A DNA stretch of 64,000 bases from assembly GCF_014644435.1 (NCBI RefSeq), contig NZ_BMKR01000017.1, forward strand, positions 1-64,000. Direction: 5' to 3'. Positions 23,216 through 40,905 of this stretch are shown one piece after another. A model generated the notes under the pieces. That model ran no database searches. It was not told the origin of the DNA and saw nothing but the letters and a program-made list of their open reading frames with translations. This stretch comes from Paenibacillus albidus. GTDB taxonomy: Bacteria > Bacillota > Bacilli > Paenibacillales > Paenibacillaceae. The position numbers and the translations under genes are program-made. Numbering within the stretch: the stretch's first letter is position 1; the number at the start of each line of letters is the position of its first letter.

Positions 23216-24716
23216 TCATTGCAGCTCCATCGCGGAAATCCGCTCCGTCATAGTTCCATATCCGGCAGCAGACTGGGCGATAAAGTTCAAGACCGTGTCG
23301 CTCCAACCGTAGATGTAAAAGGTCTTGTCGTCCTGCGTGGGTACCATCGCGTTACGGTAAGGGGCAATATCGACGATGAACGCTTTGACGTCCTTATTCA
23401 CCTTGGCGCGGTACATCCGCAACGCCTCATAAAATGGGCTGCCGCTGTTCTGCTGCTCATCGGTGATCATGATGATCTGGTCGACTTTCTTGCGCTCCGC
23501 CAGCAGCCTGCGCACAGGCGCTCCCGTATCCGTGCCTCCCCGGGCCCGAATCTGCTCAGCCTGGCCGAGGATGCTGTCACGCCGCGACGGCTTGGCATCG
23601 AAGACCTCGGTGTCGAATAGCCAGAACAGCGATTGGCCTGCGGTTTTTTTGTACAAGGCCAGCGCAAACACCGAACCGATCTGCAAGTACTCCCCGCTGT
23701 TCATCGAGCCGGAGATATCCAGGAAGATCGCGCTGCGGCCACCGATATCCGGCAGGTTATCGAACGTGAGGTCCACCGCTTCCCGCAAGGCATCCCGCAG
23801 CTCCGGCTGCTCTACCTGACGGAAGGCTGTCGCGAAGCGGAACGGCAGAATCCGGGCTTTGCGCAGGGCCTGCTGATCCGTCAGACGTTCCACTTACGTA
23901 ATCCAGGTTCCGTTTGTCTTCGAGTACCCCGGCCCGCTGCAAGGCATTCAGGTGACGGAGTAGCGCAAAGGTAGGCATCTGGTACAGGATGGAATTCCAT
24001 ACCGCGAGTGTCGGTTTGATCACGCCGGTAACGGTAGCGTAAGGCAACTTACCCGCCTCAATCCACGCCAGCTGTTCCTCTTCGGTAGCAGCCGTCTTCA
24101 GCTTCTCCATCGCTTCCACCTGCGGCAGAAGGGCAAGATTTGCTTCCTGTCCGCGCAGATAACGGAACAAGGCCTGTTGCTTCAGATCCTCCGGCTTCGG
24201 ATGCGCCGTGGCGATGGCATCGCCCAGACTGTAGCCACGTCCGCGGCCGTTGTATTTCAGGGCCCAGTATTCGCTGACCCCGGCCAGGAACAGCTTGACC
24301 TGCCGCTTCACGGCCCGGCCGCCTTCGCCCCGGCCCAGTCCGTTCAGGATGGTCAGAAAGTCGGACAGGTCCGAAGGAATCCGTACCACCTGCTGGAAGA
24401 CTTGAGAGAACAGGTCCGGACGGGCGGAAGAAAGTACCGCCAGACCGAACAACGGCTGCAAGCGCATGAAGCCTTCGCTGCGGGCATACACGAGCGCTTT
24501 GGCCATGAACACAGGGTTCCCGGCAGCCATGCTCTGGTGAAGCTCTGCCGCGTTATCGAGCAGTTCATGCTGGTCGGCATAAAAGGTTTGATTCATCGTA
24601 TTGGTCAAAAGCATCTGAACATACTGCTCCTCGGGCGAACGCGTATAGGCAGGATAGCCGTCTTTGTTGACAGTTGCCGGTCTGAGTGAACCGAACAATT
24701 TGGATGCAAAGCTCAT
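23216..24716 (-). pseudogene. rsr: Ro60/TROVE RNA-binding protein, interrupted by a frameshift
   Basis: Two overlapping frames together encode a full-length Ro60-like protein of about 499 residues. The first (ATG 24716, AAGGAGG eight bases upstream) gives the TROVE helical-repeat region to about residue 274, then runs out of frame to 23757. The second resumes at the GTG at 23893 (VERLTDQQALRKARILPFRF, a segment conserved in Ro proteins). It carries the von Willebrand A domain with the MIDAS motif DISGS (about 333-337 in the joined protein). Removing one base of the TT at 23894-23895 joins them without a gap. There is no ribosome-binding site before the GTG and a TAA directly precedes it. Ro proteins bind Y RNAs and misfolded RNAs; three Y-RNA-like elements lie directly upstream. 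Whether this is true decay or a sequencing error cannot be told. Confidence 0.85.
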
Positions 24717-24740: not shown

Positions 24741-24849
24741 CGGTGAGGAAAAAGCGGGATAGGTTCATGCAGGAGTCGAACCTGCCGTATTGCCCAGGGT
24801 AATCTTTGGCCACTTGGAAGGTGAAGTAACCCATCCCAGCGCCTCACCG
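24741..24849 (-). ncRNA. Y-RNA-like element B, with a perfect T arm
   Basis: An outer 8-base-pair helix CGGTGAGG / CCTCACCG (24842-24849 with 24741-24748) is followed by a CGCT internal loop. A 10-base-pair inner helix GGGATGGGTT / AACCTATCCC (24828-24837 with 24756-24765) comes next. The loop contains an exact tRNA-type T arm, GCAGG-TTCGACT-CCTGC (24769-24785). No clear D arm or acceptor is seen. The element ends only 25 bases before the Ro60 start codon and lacks its own terminator, so it may be the leader of the Ro60 message or be processed from it. The 5' strand shares GAGGCGC with elements A and C. Confidence 0.55.
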
Positions 24850-24868
24850 GCGGTTATGTACGGAACGA

Positions 24869-24966
24869 AGCGAAGAAAAAAAGGCGAAAAGGTTCATGCA
24901 GTGTTCCAAAAGGACACCGGCATTCATACTGGTAATAGTCGAAGAAACCCTTTCATGCGCCTCGCT
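24869..24966 (-). ncRNA. Y-RNA-like element A
   Basis: An outer helix AGCGAGG / CTTCGCT (24960-24966 with 24869-24875, one G-U pair) is followed by CGCATG. An inner helix AAAGGGTTT / GAACCTTTT (24945-24953 with 24887-24895, two G-U pairs) comes next. Its 3' internal-loop strand ends in a run of seven Ts. The loop holds an unpaired TTCGACT heptamer (24937-24943) and a hairpin around CCTTTTGG. tRNA likeness is weaker than in B and C. It sits 19 bases upstream of element B and 28 bases downstream of the T-run of C, so the three probably share a transcript. Confidence 0.5.
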
Positions 24967-24994
24967 TCATCATGTTGCAAAAAGGATATAGATT

Positions 24995-25147
24995 AAAAAA
25001 GCTGCCGAGGAAGATGAAGATTGAACAGGTACAAACTGCTCTACCACTGAGCTATTCCTCCTCTTGGAGGAAGCTGGAGTCGAACCAGCGACCCGTCGAT
25101 CCCAATTCGAAGTACCCCGTTCAGGCGCCTCGACTTTCTTGAACCTA
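24995..25147 (-). ncRNA. Y-RNA-like element C with permuted tRNA mimic
   Basis: The outer helix is GTCGAGG / CCTCGGC (25128-25134 with 25004-25010) and the inner helix is GAACGGGGTAC / GTACCTGTTC (25112-25122 with 25023-25032, small bulge). Inside, in minus-strand order, are a T arm GCTGG-TTCGACT-CCAGC (25073-25089) and a 7-base-pair acceptor hairpin TTCCTCC-AAGA-GGAGGAA (25055-25072). A TA linker follows, then a D arm GCTC-AGTGGTA-GAGC (25038-25052) with the GG needed for D-loop/T-loop contact. This is a complete tRNA elbow and acceptor in circularly permuted order, joined to the Ro-side helix where the anticodon stem would be. That matches the known fold of YrlA-type bacterial Y RNAs. TTTTTT at 24995-25000 marks the 3' end. 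The 5' end is inferred from the promoter. Confidence 0.75.
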
Positions 25148-25153
25148 TTGTCG

Positions 25154-25183
25154 CTTATATTCAGGCATCCGAACATGGCGCAA
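25154..25183 (-). promoter_or_regulatory. Likely promoter of the Y-RNA/Ro60 transcript
   Basis: On the minus strand a near-consensus -10 box TATAAG (25154-25159) lies 18 bases after a weak -35 TTGCGC (25178-25183). Transcription would begin about 25147, just before element C. The weak -35 suggests an activator, possibly one of the divergent WYL proteins. Confidence 0.45.
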
Positions 25184-25222
25184 GTATTACGACTTCCTGA
25201 GAAACTTCTCCAATTTGTCCAG

Positions 25223-25285: not shown

Positions 25286-26605
25286 ATGGCTAAAGAAAGC
25301 TTTGACAAGGAGATTCAATTCCTGCGCATGCTTGTATTGACGAGCGGAGCGTATAACCGCAAACAATTTGCCGAACGGCTGGGCATTTCCGTACATACTT
25401 TTGACAAGACACTGAAGAAATTGAAAGAGGTCGTAAGCACTGTCTACCAGCAGCTGCCGGAAGAACAGGGCCAGGAATTCGCCGAATCGCTCCGCTTCAA
25501 TTACTACGGTTCCGCCGAACCGATGCTGCTGTTCTTGTTCCGGGCCAAATCCCTGAAGGACTCGGAGAGCCAGCGGATTGCGAGGCTCCTGTCCGCGCTG
25601 CACGAACAGCCGCTGACGGCCAAGGAACTGCTTGATATCTGCTGCACCGATGAAATCGCTGACGTTTCTTTTCCCGACGAAAAAACGATCCGCGGCGATC
25701 TGAAATACTTGGCTGAGGTAGGCGTGATCCGCAAAGAACCCGGTCCCCGGCCCTTCCGCTATCGGCTGGAAAATGACCTTGTCCATGCCTTGTCGGATGA
25801 TGAGCTGCTGGATCTGTTTGACTTCGTGGACGTAATGTCCAATACGCAGCTCCCGTCCATCCAGGGATACCTGCTGCGGGATGGCCTGCGCAAACAGCTG
25901 AGCCGCAAAGCCGAGGGCAATGAGAGCCTTGAACCTTTTCTCTACAAATACCATTACTACTCGCGGATTCTGGACGAAGCCCATCTCTTCCCGCTGCTGT
26001 CCGCCATCCGCTATCGGCGCAAGGTGGAGTTTCTCTATTTCTCGCCCCGGATGGATCAAAGCTATGCTTCCCAGAACACGAATCCGCTGTTCGCCCGCGA
26101 GACGGAAGGCAAGCAGGAAACGGCGCTTCCGCTCAAAGTGGTCTACGACCATCAGTATGGGAGATGGTATCTGCTCGCTTGGCACAGCCGGAGTGATATC
26201 CGCAAGTACCGCTTGGAAGGGATGACGCAGCTTGAAGAAGCGGAGGTCGTGTCTGAGGATTTTTTTGAAAAGAAAAGACAGTTGCTTGAGGACAGAATCC
26301 GTTACAGCTGGTTGATTGATACGGGCCGGCCGGTGACTATTCAGTGCAGATTCATAAACCCTCAGGCGGATGGGGCTGCGCATAACTTCGTGAAGGAACG
26401 GGTGCTGCTGCAGGGGCAGTGGGGACGGATCGTGGAGGAAGATGAGTGTTCCTTCGTCTTTGAAATCACAGTGAATGGGACCACGGAGATCAGGCCGTGG
26501 CTGCGCAGCTTCGGGTCCAGCTGTGAAGTGCTGTCGCCAGCGAAGCTCCGGCAGGAGATGATCCAGGAGTGGAAGGAGATTGCCGCTTACTATGAATCCT
26601 TTTGA
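25286..26605 (+). CDS. WYL-domain transcriptional regulator 1
   Basis: This 439-residue protein has an N-terminal helix-turn-helix (KQFAERLGISVHTFDKTLKKL, about 25-45) and an extended second winged-helix-like region. A WYL domain sits around residue 290 (GRWYLLAWHSRSDIRKYRLEGM), followed by a WCX-type C-terminal extension. WYL proteins bind nucleotides or nucleic acids as ligands and control defence or RNA/DNA-damage genes in several known systems. ATG 25286 has CGGAGG seven bases upstream. It is read divergently from the Y-RNA/Ro60 transcript across a gap of about 140 bases. Control of Ro60 and the Y RNAs is therefore likely but inferred. The 451-residue frame antisense to it is a shadow. 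Confidence 0.88.
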   Translation: MAKESFDKEIQFLRMLVLTSGAYNRKQFAERLGISVHTFDKTLKKLKEVVSTVYQQLPEEQGQEFAESLRFNYYGSAEPMLLFLFRAKSLKDSESQRIARLLSALHEQPLTAKELLDICCTDEIADVSFPDEKTIRGDLKYLAEVGVIRKEPGPRPFRYRLENDLVHALSDDELLDLFDFVDVMSNTQLPSIQGYLLRDGLRKQLSRKAEGNESLEPFLYKYHYYSRILDEAHLFPLLSAIRYRRKVEFLYFSPRMDQSYASQNTNPLFARETEGKQETALPLKVVYDHQYGRWYLLAWHSRSDIRKYRLEGMTQLEEAEVVSEDFFEKKRQLLEDRIRYSWLIDTGRPVTIQCRFINPQADGAAHNFVKERVLLQGQWGRIVEEDECSFVFEITVNGTTEIRPWLRSFGSSCEVLSPAKLRQEMIQEWKEIAAYYESF

Positions 26606-27401
26606 GAAAATATTCAACTACCAGCTGCTCGCCCGCCTGCAGGACTCCGGCACCTTCCTCGCCACAGCCCATGAACGCTCCTGGCTGAAGCTGATGCTCA
26701 CACACCCTTCCGCTGCGGAAGCCTTCTCGGCGGTCACGCTTGCGAAGCTCACCACGCTGTTGCAGCAGGATGAAGCGCTCGATCTGCATGGCCATTTTGT
26801 ACAGAAGGCCGGCAGCCTGGAAGCACAGGTCTATCACCCGCTGCTGCGCCCCCTGCGCCGGGCGATCTGGCATAAGCAAGGGATTACCATGTGTTTCCTT
26901 CACAAGGACGGGAGCTGCGGTGCAGAACAATCCGGGTTTCCCTACCGGCTGGAATATTCCATGGTCAAACGGGAATGGTATTTGCTGTGGTACAATTTCC
27001 GAACCCGGGCCTATGTCAGTACCCGGCTCAGAAAGCTGAAGCTCCTCTCCACGGAACCGCTCACCGCGGAACTTGTTGCGTCCACTCTGGCTGAAATCGG
27101 GCGACTGCTGGAGAGCCGCAAGCGCAGCGCCGTGATTACGGTTCTGCCAGAGTATAACAAGGAGCTGTCCCGGATATTATACGCGTTCTCCTGCTTTGAG
27201 AAAGAAGTCGCTTACGACCCGGAGCTGCAAACCTATTCCATCACCCTTACTTTTCTCGGAAATGAGAGTGAATATGTATTGTCCAAGCTGCGTTTCTTAG
27301 GCAAACGGGTCCGTGTGACCGAAGGCGGTTATCTGATTGGCCGGATGCGTGAGTCCAGCCTGAAAGCACTGCGCCAGTATGGGATGAACACACCGGACTG
27401 A
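26592..27401 (+). CDS. WYL-domain protein 2
   Basis: This 269-residue protein overlaps the end of WYL regulator 1 by 14 bases (ATG 26592 inside the last codons), so the two are translated together. The WYL motif is visible at about 120-150 (REWYLLWYNFRTRAYVSTRLRKLKLL) and a WCX-like C-terminal domain follows. No clear DNA-binding helix-turn-helix is seen at the N-terminus, so it may act as a partner subunit of WYL1. A TTG at 26580 in the same frame is too close to the GGAAGGAG site. Function beyond the domain call is unknown. Confidence 0.82.
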   Translation: MNPFEKIFNYQLLARLQDSGTFLATAHERSWLKLMLTHPSAAEAFSAVTLAKLTTLLQQDEALDLHGHFVQKAGSLEAQVYHPLLRPLRRAIWHKQGITMCFLHKDGSCGAEQSGFPYRLEYSMVKREWYLLWYNFRTRAYVSTRLRKLKLLSTEPLTAELVASTLAEIGRLLESRKRSAVITVLPEYNKELSRILYAFSCFEKEVAYDPELQTYSITLTFLGNESEYVLSKLRFLGKRVRVTEGGYLIGRMRESSLKALRQYGMNTPD

Positions 27402-40664: not shown

Positions 40665-40715
40665 ATCAGTGAATGATCAGGGAACAGATCATGCCAATTA
40701 CAAATAAAGGTCCGA

Positions 40716-40808
40716 CTCCACTTTCCTACGCTGGTATGATCCAGATCAGGTTCAAGGGTCCGGAAATGCAATTTTCCCGTCTCAGCCTATTCAGGCTCCC
40801 CTAGTGGG
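40716..40808 (-). promoter_or_regulatory. TPP riboswitch (THI element)
   Basis: The minus strand contains the conserved THI segments. AGGGGAGCC leads to GGCTGAGA, then ACCCTTGAACCTGATCTGG (the TPP-binding core), then ATACCAGCGTAGG. P1 is CCACT / AGTGG (40803-40807 with 40718-40722). It is followed by a transcription terminator and thiC. In the rest of the gap 40586-40905 only the thiC promoter region, with a TTGACA box at 40851-40856, is seen. Confidence 0.95.
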
Positions 40809-40905
40809 TTCTTGTTCAATTAGTTATACGGTACATAGAAATCCAGCAATTGTCAACCATTAGATCGGATTCTACTCTTCGGGCAACCTTACCTCTCTCA
40901 TTCAT

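Follow-up and report, generated by a model that had tools for sequence, protein, structure and literature searches.

Directly upstream of the Ro60/Rsr gene of Paenibacillus albidus lie three tandem RNA elements, C, A and B, which on sequence grounds belong to the bacterial Y RNAs. Element C is a four-armed variant of YrlA that falls outside the description of the Rfam model, i.e. its upper domain reads as an entire tRNA in circular permutation, with an anticodon-like arm in addition to the acceptor, T and D arms. The window, i.e. the whole 64 000-nt stretch of contig NZ_BMKR01000017.1 analysed here, had been the subject of an original prediction of three tandem Y-RNA-like elements in front of Ro60, made without assigning a strand; the elements are real and lie on the minus strand, with C, A, B as the order of transcription. 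Their Y-RNA-like identity beside Ro60 was likewise upheld, in that C matches the Rfam YrlA family, albeit below threshold, and the protein encoded by an intact relative of the gene is predicted to fold like Rsr/Ro60. Concerning C itself, the prediction had the element right and missed both the tRNA-like domain and the anticodon-like arm. The three-RNA layout recurs in Paenibacillus and Brevibacillus relatives.

Read 5′ to 3′ on the minus strand, the locus comprises a conserved upstream block, C, A, B and the Ro60 gene, whose ATG at position 24716 stands 25 bases past the end of B, as had been stated, with a likely ribosome-binding site in between. A covariance model (R1) built from an alignment (A1) of 33 C elements, that of the window among them, matched C at 25136–25002 (123.5 bits, E 5e-30) and recovered the other two elements over their full length, A at 24968–24867 (36.6 bits, E 5.8e-7) and B at 24850–24740 (50.0 bits, E 1.7e-10). 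This bears out the coordinates and helices first proposed, as well as the GAGGCGC 5′ strand, outer helix, CGC loop and inner helix that the three elements were said to share. What C, A and B have in common is GAGG-CGC-NN leading into the inner helix and, because the weaker R1 matches extend over the entire model, the module of outer plus inner helix is the shared portion. By this basal stem with its internal loop, common to a recognised Y RNA, A and B would also qualify as bacterial Y RNAs. In their upper domains, B has a T-arm (GCAGG-TTCGACT-CCTGC, with the T-loop altered in loci L026, L028 and L029) and no D-arm, and A has neither a T-arm nor a D-arm. The heptamer TTCGACT, originally taken as one feature of all three elements, is not homologous throughout: it is the T-loop in C and B; the copy in A directly follows the inner helix on the 5′ strand, where C has the first stem strand of its anticodon-like hairpin. 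Folding of the single sequences gave z-scores of −3.68 for B, −2.70 for A and −1.67 for C, and the minimum-energy fold of C alone is not tRNA-like.

The window was compared with 30 named loci of Paenibacillus, Brevibacillus and Gordonibacillus, fetched via their Ro protein. R1 scored C at 92 bits or more in all 31 loci (32 copies, L039 having two) and, at 20–50 bits, found 26 A and 22 B elements, which were sorted into A or B by position and T-arm; nothing else appeared at E≤1. The full set C-A-B, in this order, is present in 19 of the 31 loci. The alignments of C (A1), A (A2, 30 sequences) and B (A3, 24 sequences) include some genomes beyond the named loci; duplicate records (L002, L004, L007 and L010) were dropped and repeated sequences skipped, C of L011 and L024 and B of L012, L032, L033 and L035 were not parsed, L016 was left out of A3 for a long insert in B, and the ends of several A rows were placed by hand.

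Pairing was claimed to be kept while the helix sequences change, and this holds across relatives for C: in A1, 96.8 % of cells pair, compared with 87.8 % when shuffled, 17 pairs show changes of both partners, and covariation is scored at 0.319 versus 0.045–0.092 for slid structures, all with the proviso that the rows are related and shuffles overstate significance. The helices of B and A are likewise well paired. For B, 98.4 % of cells pair versus 93.5 % when shuffled, with five double-changed pairs, a number matched by 39 of 500 shuffles; for A, each of the eight outer pairs forms in 29–30 of 30 sequences, and so does each of the eight inner pairs except the innermost one (24/30). Coding potential was judged by eye, with the lengths of all three elements varying by non-multiples of three. 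As to individual loci, L011 shows an apparent deletion of the upstream block and of the GAGGCGC outer strand of C, with the tRNA-like body kept, and L016 carries imperfect repeats containing CGAACGCGAGTAGGG inserted between the upstream block and C.

From the inner helix onwards, C runs through a hairpin, a linker, the T-arm, the acceptor 3′ strand, a closing loop, the acceptor 5′ strand, UA and the D-arm back to the inner helix, i.e. it has the permuted T-acceptor-D order that is a trait of YrlA, with a T-arm of 5 bp and a 7-nt loop, acceptor strands of 7 nt each and a D-arm of 4 bp. In the window, the 5′ strand of the outer helix, GTCGAGG (25128–25134), pairs with 25004–25010, and that of the inner helix (25112–25122) with a 3′ strand at 25023–25032. 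The T-arm GCTGG-TTCGACT-CCAGC lies at 25073–25089, and the acceptor-like 3′ strand (25066–25072) pairs with 25055–25061 through seven pairs, all of them with double changes. The four pairs of the putative D-arm, GCTCAGTGGTAGAGC (25038–25052), are invariant in the 33 rows; because they do not vary, this pairing is neither supported nor refuted.

Between the inner helix and the T-arm, at 25096–25110, C carries the anticodon-like hairpin (stem TCGA/TCGA, 7-nt loop ATTGGGA at 25100–25106), which is placed by the alignment and was predicted unprompted by RNAalifold (pairs 27–30/38–41). The 4-bp stem covaries, the closing pair being C-G in 18 rows, A-U in 11, U-A in one and unpaired or gapped in three. 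In tRNA numbering, U33 is present in all 32 loops, position 32 is C (28) or A (4), position 37 is A (30) or G (2), and A38 is found in 30, while positions 34–36 vary. Most loops end in U36-A37-A38 (26 of 32 in A1), and those of the window (AUUGGGA, i.e. U33, ‘UGG’, G37 and A38) and of Gordonia phage Sixama have G36-G37. The equivalents of positions 44–48 follow the hairpin (G46-U47 in 33/33 and C48 in 32/33), represented in the window by the variable-loop-like GGGTC at 25090–25094. Put back into tRNA order, 31 of the 33 C elements measure 75 or 76 nt with CCA. As exceptions, the hairpin is lost from L037, and deviations occur in L014, L020 and the second C of L039.

Searched with the Rfam YrlA model (RF02553), C gave 45 bits over the full length of 1–114 (E 9.2e-9 in a 701-base search), which is below the gathering score of 69, a cut-off passed by none of the 398 Bacillota genomes sampled. 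Between the Ro stem and the T-arm, the RF02553 consensus has no arm but only four unpaired positions, and it is here that C departs from it by its covarying 4-bp hairpin with a 7-nt loop. We nevertheless treat C as a YrlA variant, since the RF02553 matches of Rhizobium and Methylosinus have insertions at the same place, in their case 3-bp versions of the hairpin. The missing arm in the consensus would also suit the explanation that the hairpin is a mere spacer or extra helix whose likeness is coincidental, C then being an ordinary three-armed YrlA. We consider this unlikely, even though stem pairs 28-40 and 29-39 never switch to another standard pair in the C alignment and L037 does without the arm. 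ARAGORN was tried as proof of the arm and rejected: it called a tRNA in 32 of 33 un-permuted C elements, but also in 745 of 990 joins with shuffled middles, and because shuffled middles pass as well, these calls, which the spacer explanation accommodates, do not prove the arm. What argues against coincidence is that a 4-bp stem, a 7-nt loop and a 5-nt variable loop stand at tRNA spacing, combined with the constancy of U33, of a purine at 37 and of G46-U47. This grammar (stem, U33, purine 37, G46-U47-Y48) was found in 27 of 30 gapless rows (three rows with gaps being left out) and in 4 of 60 000 shuffles, a descriptive comparison given that the rows are related.

Phage elements bear on the same question from both sides. 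From 86 phage loci collected around Ro-like genes, permuted T-acceptor-acceptor-D elements were chosen without regard to the hairpin, yielding 59 candidates in 52 loci. Of these 59, 19 have a 4-bp stem and a 7-nt loop with the offset exactly as in tRNA, which is the peak of the 117 combinations of loop size and offset, the other 116 giving 0–12; ten of the 59 overlap an ARAGORN tRNA call, and without these the peak is 12 of 49. With a one-base shift allowed, 20 elements carry the arm and 39 lack it, the latter in line with a spacer. Among the 20 arm-bearing elements, however, U33 is present in 19, a purine at 37 in 19 and A38 in 20, with ten different triplets at 34–36, and the stems differ (UCAC/GUGA, UCUC/GAGA, UUCA/UGAA and UUCC/GGAA among them) while the loop grammar stays. 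A further phage set, picked by the C model and biased towards the hairpin (97 matches from a search of 74 of the 86 loci, 85 of the matches usable and distinct), has the full stem in 26 of 85 elements, six of these 26 without U33 at that offset; pooled phage loops were selected for U33, and their U33 count is therefore no evidence.

Within the family, all 22 distinct parsed loci among the best 30 C-model matches (five not parsed, three not distinct) have a four-armed C, again with a bias towards the hairpin owing to the choice by the C model. Four of seven plasmid Ro loci gave R1 matches, those of Pseudomonas, Streptomyces and Aneurinibacillus giving none; one Rhodococcus element (L245:1870) has a five-pair stem and the loop CUGUUAA, a second one in the same locus has the loop UUUGGGA with four of five stem pairs, and the Picosynechococcus element and a second one from Rhizobium do not fit at the canonical offset. 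Three further loci of mobile elements were recorded. In Gordonia phage VanLee (L101, 2162–2233), the position annotated as tRNA-Arg(tct) is that of the 5′ portion of a four-armed Y RNA next to Ro; on the Aneurinibacillus plasmid (L243, 2252–2319), a normal-order tRNA-like element with a shortened anticodon region lies directly upstream of the plasmid Ro gene; and Gordonia phage Sixama (L096, 4935–5356) has a tmRNA match of 88.1 bits in an array with Ro, tRNAs and a Y RNA.

Neighbouring tRNA genes place the 3′ half of one tRNA before the 5′ half of the next, which is the strand order of C. A phylum-wide RF02553 search was rejected as a census, as in 16 of the 20 loci returned the match is surrounded by a pair of neighbouring tRNA genes; the other four are L087, with one odd tRNA call, and three without any, i.e. 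the window locus and two loci of the same family, the latter two being true C elements with R1 scores of 139 and 112 bits. The tRNA-gene junctions score around 36–41 bits with Rfam YrlA and are thus a source of false annotation (L074–L080, L082, L084–L086 and L088–L092). L087 (1495–1632, in Bacillota genome G491), which is not of the family, matches R1 over its full length with 77 bits. At E≤0.001, weak R1 matches were present in 95 of 100 genus genomes; of those listed near 40 bits, the majority cover model positions 27–101, and the two that we checked in the genome of P. albidus itself (C41:62775 and C43:146) span neighbouring tRNA genes. In phage Sixama, the four-armed element is located inside a tRNA array. 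It is tempting to speculate that C may have arisen from a junction of adjacent tRNA genes. A recent tRNA origin was considered and is not supported, as C shows an identity of 0.43–0.56 with 38 distinct tRNAs taken from sampled loci of the same genome, versus a median of 0.62 among these tRNAs. That the elements are functionless degraded tRNA genes or remnants of a tRNA array, which the half-tRNA order of tandem tRNA genes and their scores of about 40 bits with the models might suggest, is hardly credible in view of the covariation, the strict linkage to Ro, the shared module, this low identity and the absence of any ARAGORN tRNA call in the 33 C elements in native order.

The linkage to Ro was borne out by the covariance-model search of relatives. 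In the genus sample, Ro was found in 9 of 100 genomes, and a full C above 100 bits in eight of these nine versus none of the 91 others, the ninth (G075, L008) having C reduced to a remnant. Ro is present in 70 of the 295 genomes sampled from the family; 61 of the 70 were searched for C (five from the own genus, which the genus sample had covered, and four containing only fragments were left out), and 59 of the 61 have it. Contig and strand are those of Ro for all 63 family C matches, and 62 of the 63 are found within 1.2 kb upstream. As for YrlA, the gene for C adjoins a Ro60 orthologue. One genome (G726, contig C4, position 873565) has, at a distance of 7.3 kb from Ro, an additional complete C element.

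The Ro60/Rsr gene of the window (23216–24716, minus strand) is frameshifted, the split falling between homologous residues 274 and 275, near position 23890, and therefore matches the Pfam domains TROVE and vWA_Ro60 in two pieces. A single reading frame covers Ro in 38 of 40 loci (four of the 40 being duplicate records); in L015, Ro is also split, at another place. In the window, the Ro frame is broken, yet all three Y RNAs look intact. Because of the broken frame, the RNP may be inactive in this strain, unless the frameshift is an assembly error. The intact Ro protein of L014 was modelled with AlphaFold2 (pLDDT 77.7, pTM 0.70), and the model resembles Deinococcus Rsr (2nvo) with a TM-score of 0.73; all 13 structural matches at E≤0.001 are Ro/TROVE proteins. 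Together with the two Pfam pieces of the window, this model points to the Ro60/Rsr architecture of a HEAT-repeat TROVE ring plus a vWA domain. The same protein reached 87 bits with the NCBIfam Rsr equivalog model, far under its cut-off of 900, and a genome-level PF05731 search missed the Ro gene, which protein and alignment searches recovered. No relative of the L014 protein was found in viral contigs.

Upstream of C, a conserved block, GTCGTAATACTTGCGCCATGTTCG (25170–25193, minus strand), is a putative operator or promoter. Its pattern, GTCGTAATACTT-NCGCCATGTTCG with small variations, is found in 30 of 31 loci (28 by the strict pattern and two by a looser one) and is absent only from L011; the upstream regions were compared in 28 chosen regions, L011 being left out, before the count was extended to all 31 loci. 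A second, less conserved block, TATAAGCGACAATAGG (25144–25159, minus strand), lies 3′ of the first and, as read by eye, possibly represents a −10 region; one fixed AATAAGCGA-like pattern fits 21 of 31 loci, the window not included. A consensus scan for promoters and terminators gave about the same number of sites as in shuffled sequence and no terminator-like site between the elements and Ro.

This last result would fit a cis-acting leader, i.e. B, and perhaps the whole array, would not be independent RNAs but a 5′ UTR structure whose stem is bound by Ro to repress its own translation. The position of B, ending so close to the Ro ATG with a likely ribosome-binding site in the gap, agrees with such a role, and so do L033 and L035, in which only the 5′ part of B is left and runs directly into the Ro start region. 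On the other hand, of the 31 loci, R1 misses B in nine and A in five and yet finds C, the element farthest from Ro, in all of them; the elaborate tRNA body of C would be superfluous for a leader, and a T run follows the outer helix of C in the window. We regard the leader as improbable as the sole explanation, and a leader role and an independent-RNA role can coexist.

A WYL/WCX-domain transcription regulator, recognised by Pfam, is encoded divergently at 25286–26605 (plus strand), followed by the second, shorter gene of the divergent pair at 26592–27401 (plus strand); each has a homologue in 27 of 30 named loci. In PafBC-type pairs, two WYL proteins work together as a single activator responsive to single-stranded DNA; here, the WYL domain was detected by Pfam in the first gene of the window and, for the second gene, in the relative L014 and not in the window copy. 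According to PMC11804915, WYL proteins (PafBC) can be activated by single-stranded DNA, and by analogy a nucleic-acid-damage signal for the Ro operon is therefore plausible. An annotated RtcR holds the divergent position in the Ro loci of Methylosinus, Rhizobium and Pseudomonas; the window does not have this RtcR-regulated RNA repair layout, with WYL-type genes divergent instead. Downstream of Ro, within the short flanks of the 30 loci, three protein families recur in 20/30, 6/30 and 6/30, their tested members being RlaP, RtcB and Hen1, respectively, so that RtcB was seen in only six. Another family of about 520 aa is found downstream of Ro in 11 of 30 loci (e.g. L015 7167–8732), and its tested member has no Pfam or NCBIfam match. 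Elsewhere in the window, the Rfam scan at gathering level returned only a TPP riboswitch (40706–40812, minus strand, 78.6 bits), and ARAGORN called no tRNA.

Chen et al. (2014) reportedly recognised likely Y RNAs near Ro60 in over 250 species of bacteria and phages, each with one or more that are tRNA-like, and multiple Y RNAs per species. The original view that three Y RNAs for one Ro gene are unusual stands only in part, given that the set recurs among the loci compared and that multiple Y RNAs per species are known, Salmonella, for example, having YrlA and YrlB (PMC9879122). Known Y RNAs also supply the closest likenesses. Like YrlA of the Salmonella rsr-yrlBA-rtcBA locus, C is Ro-adjacent and modular, with a two-part basal stem and a permuted T-acceptor-D domain; it differs by its additional anticodon-like hairpin and by standing upstream of Ro in a set of three. 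Vertebrate Y RNAs (hY1–hY5) resemble the array in that several serve one Ro60 and the Ro site lies in the basal stem (the site as given in PMC4726728), whereas their upper domains are unrelated and no sequence homology is claimed. The Y RNA of Deinococcus radiodurans, which forms the Rsr-Y RNA-PNPase complex RYPER (PMC4726728 and PMC8394870), offers a functional model in which a Ro ring is joined to a Y RNA scaffold; it differs in that three RNAs with different heads are present here, and PNPase tethering would be assumed by analogy. Within tRNA biology, tmRNA and permuted tRNA genes also derive a tRNA body from a non-canonical strand order or a partial tRNA, with the difference that C is closed by a Y stem between the D-arm and the anticodon-like arm. 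Nor is C known to have a reading frame or to be aminoacylated.

We found no description of an anticodon-like arm in a Y RNA in the literature on YrlA, Rsr, Ro60 and phage Y RNAs, as far as the sources were accessible and short of the primary papers Chen 2014, Wang 2018, and Sim and Wolin 2018, and none joining permuted tRNA with Y RNA. Because this search stopped short of the primary papers, the novelty of the arm is provisional. PMC8394870 describes YrlA RNAs as imitating the D, T and acceptor arms and as being modified by tRNA enzymes.

Taken together, the locus is probably a Ro RNP operon in which three Y RNAs combine one shared Ro-docking module with different heads. A single promoter, probably controlled by the divergent WYL-type regulators, would transcribe C, A, B and Ro60, and the transcript would be processed. 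The RNAs would dock on the Ro ring via the outer helix, CGC internal loop and inner helix, a module that is present in all three and whose binding to Ro is predicted, and their upper domains would face effectors, i.e. C with a tRNA body, B with a T-arm only and A with unrelated hairpins. The example of YrlA suggests that C would link Ro to a partner able to recognise tRNA, e.g. PNPase, and be open to modification by tRNA enzymes, and A and B might be alternative adaptors or gates of the same ring. The Ro RNP operon is supported by the shared module, the YrlA match, the Ro fold and linkage, the C-A-B order and the covariation of the tRNA body, and further by the recurrent divergent regulator, its RtcR counterparts and the RNA-repair genes downstream in relatives. 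Counted against it are the sub-threshold Rfam score, the minimum-energy fold of C, the frameshift in Ro, the loss or deviation of the hairpin in some loci, the degraded loci L011, L033 and L035 and genome G075, and PNPase tethering being known only from other species.

Among tRNAs, a loop ending in U36-A37-A38 is the context of t6A and G36-G37 that of m1G37. Judged by these letters, most C loops would fit the t6A context and those of the window and Sixama the m1G37 context. It is conceivable, if rather doubtful, that the four-armed Y RNAs are complete tRNA decoys whose loop is a recognition site for anticodon-loop enzymes, i.e. modification enzymes, for example those that make t6A37 or m1G37, or the anticodon nucleases of phages or rival bacteria. 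If so, decoys that had been cleaved and stayed on the Ro ring would signal damage to tRNAs or spare the real ones, the neighbouring RNA-repair enzymes would mend the decoys, and phages would carry the same decoy device. In Salmonella, fragments of YrlA were not detected, and YrlA is thus not a substrate of the RecA-dependent tRNA-cleaving nuclease; competitive inhibition of this anticodon nuclease was suggested as a role that its tRNA-like domain could have (PMC7790460). C as a tRNA decoy or adaptor is a testable idea: the recurrent anticodon-like loop would make both the competitive-inhibitor proposal and the purpose of tRNA mimicry in Y RNAs directly testable, and three Y RNAs with one handle and three heads would offer a natural comparison of what each head recruits.
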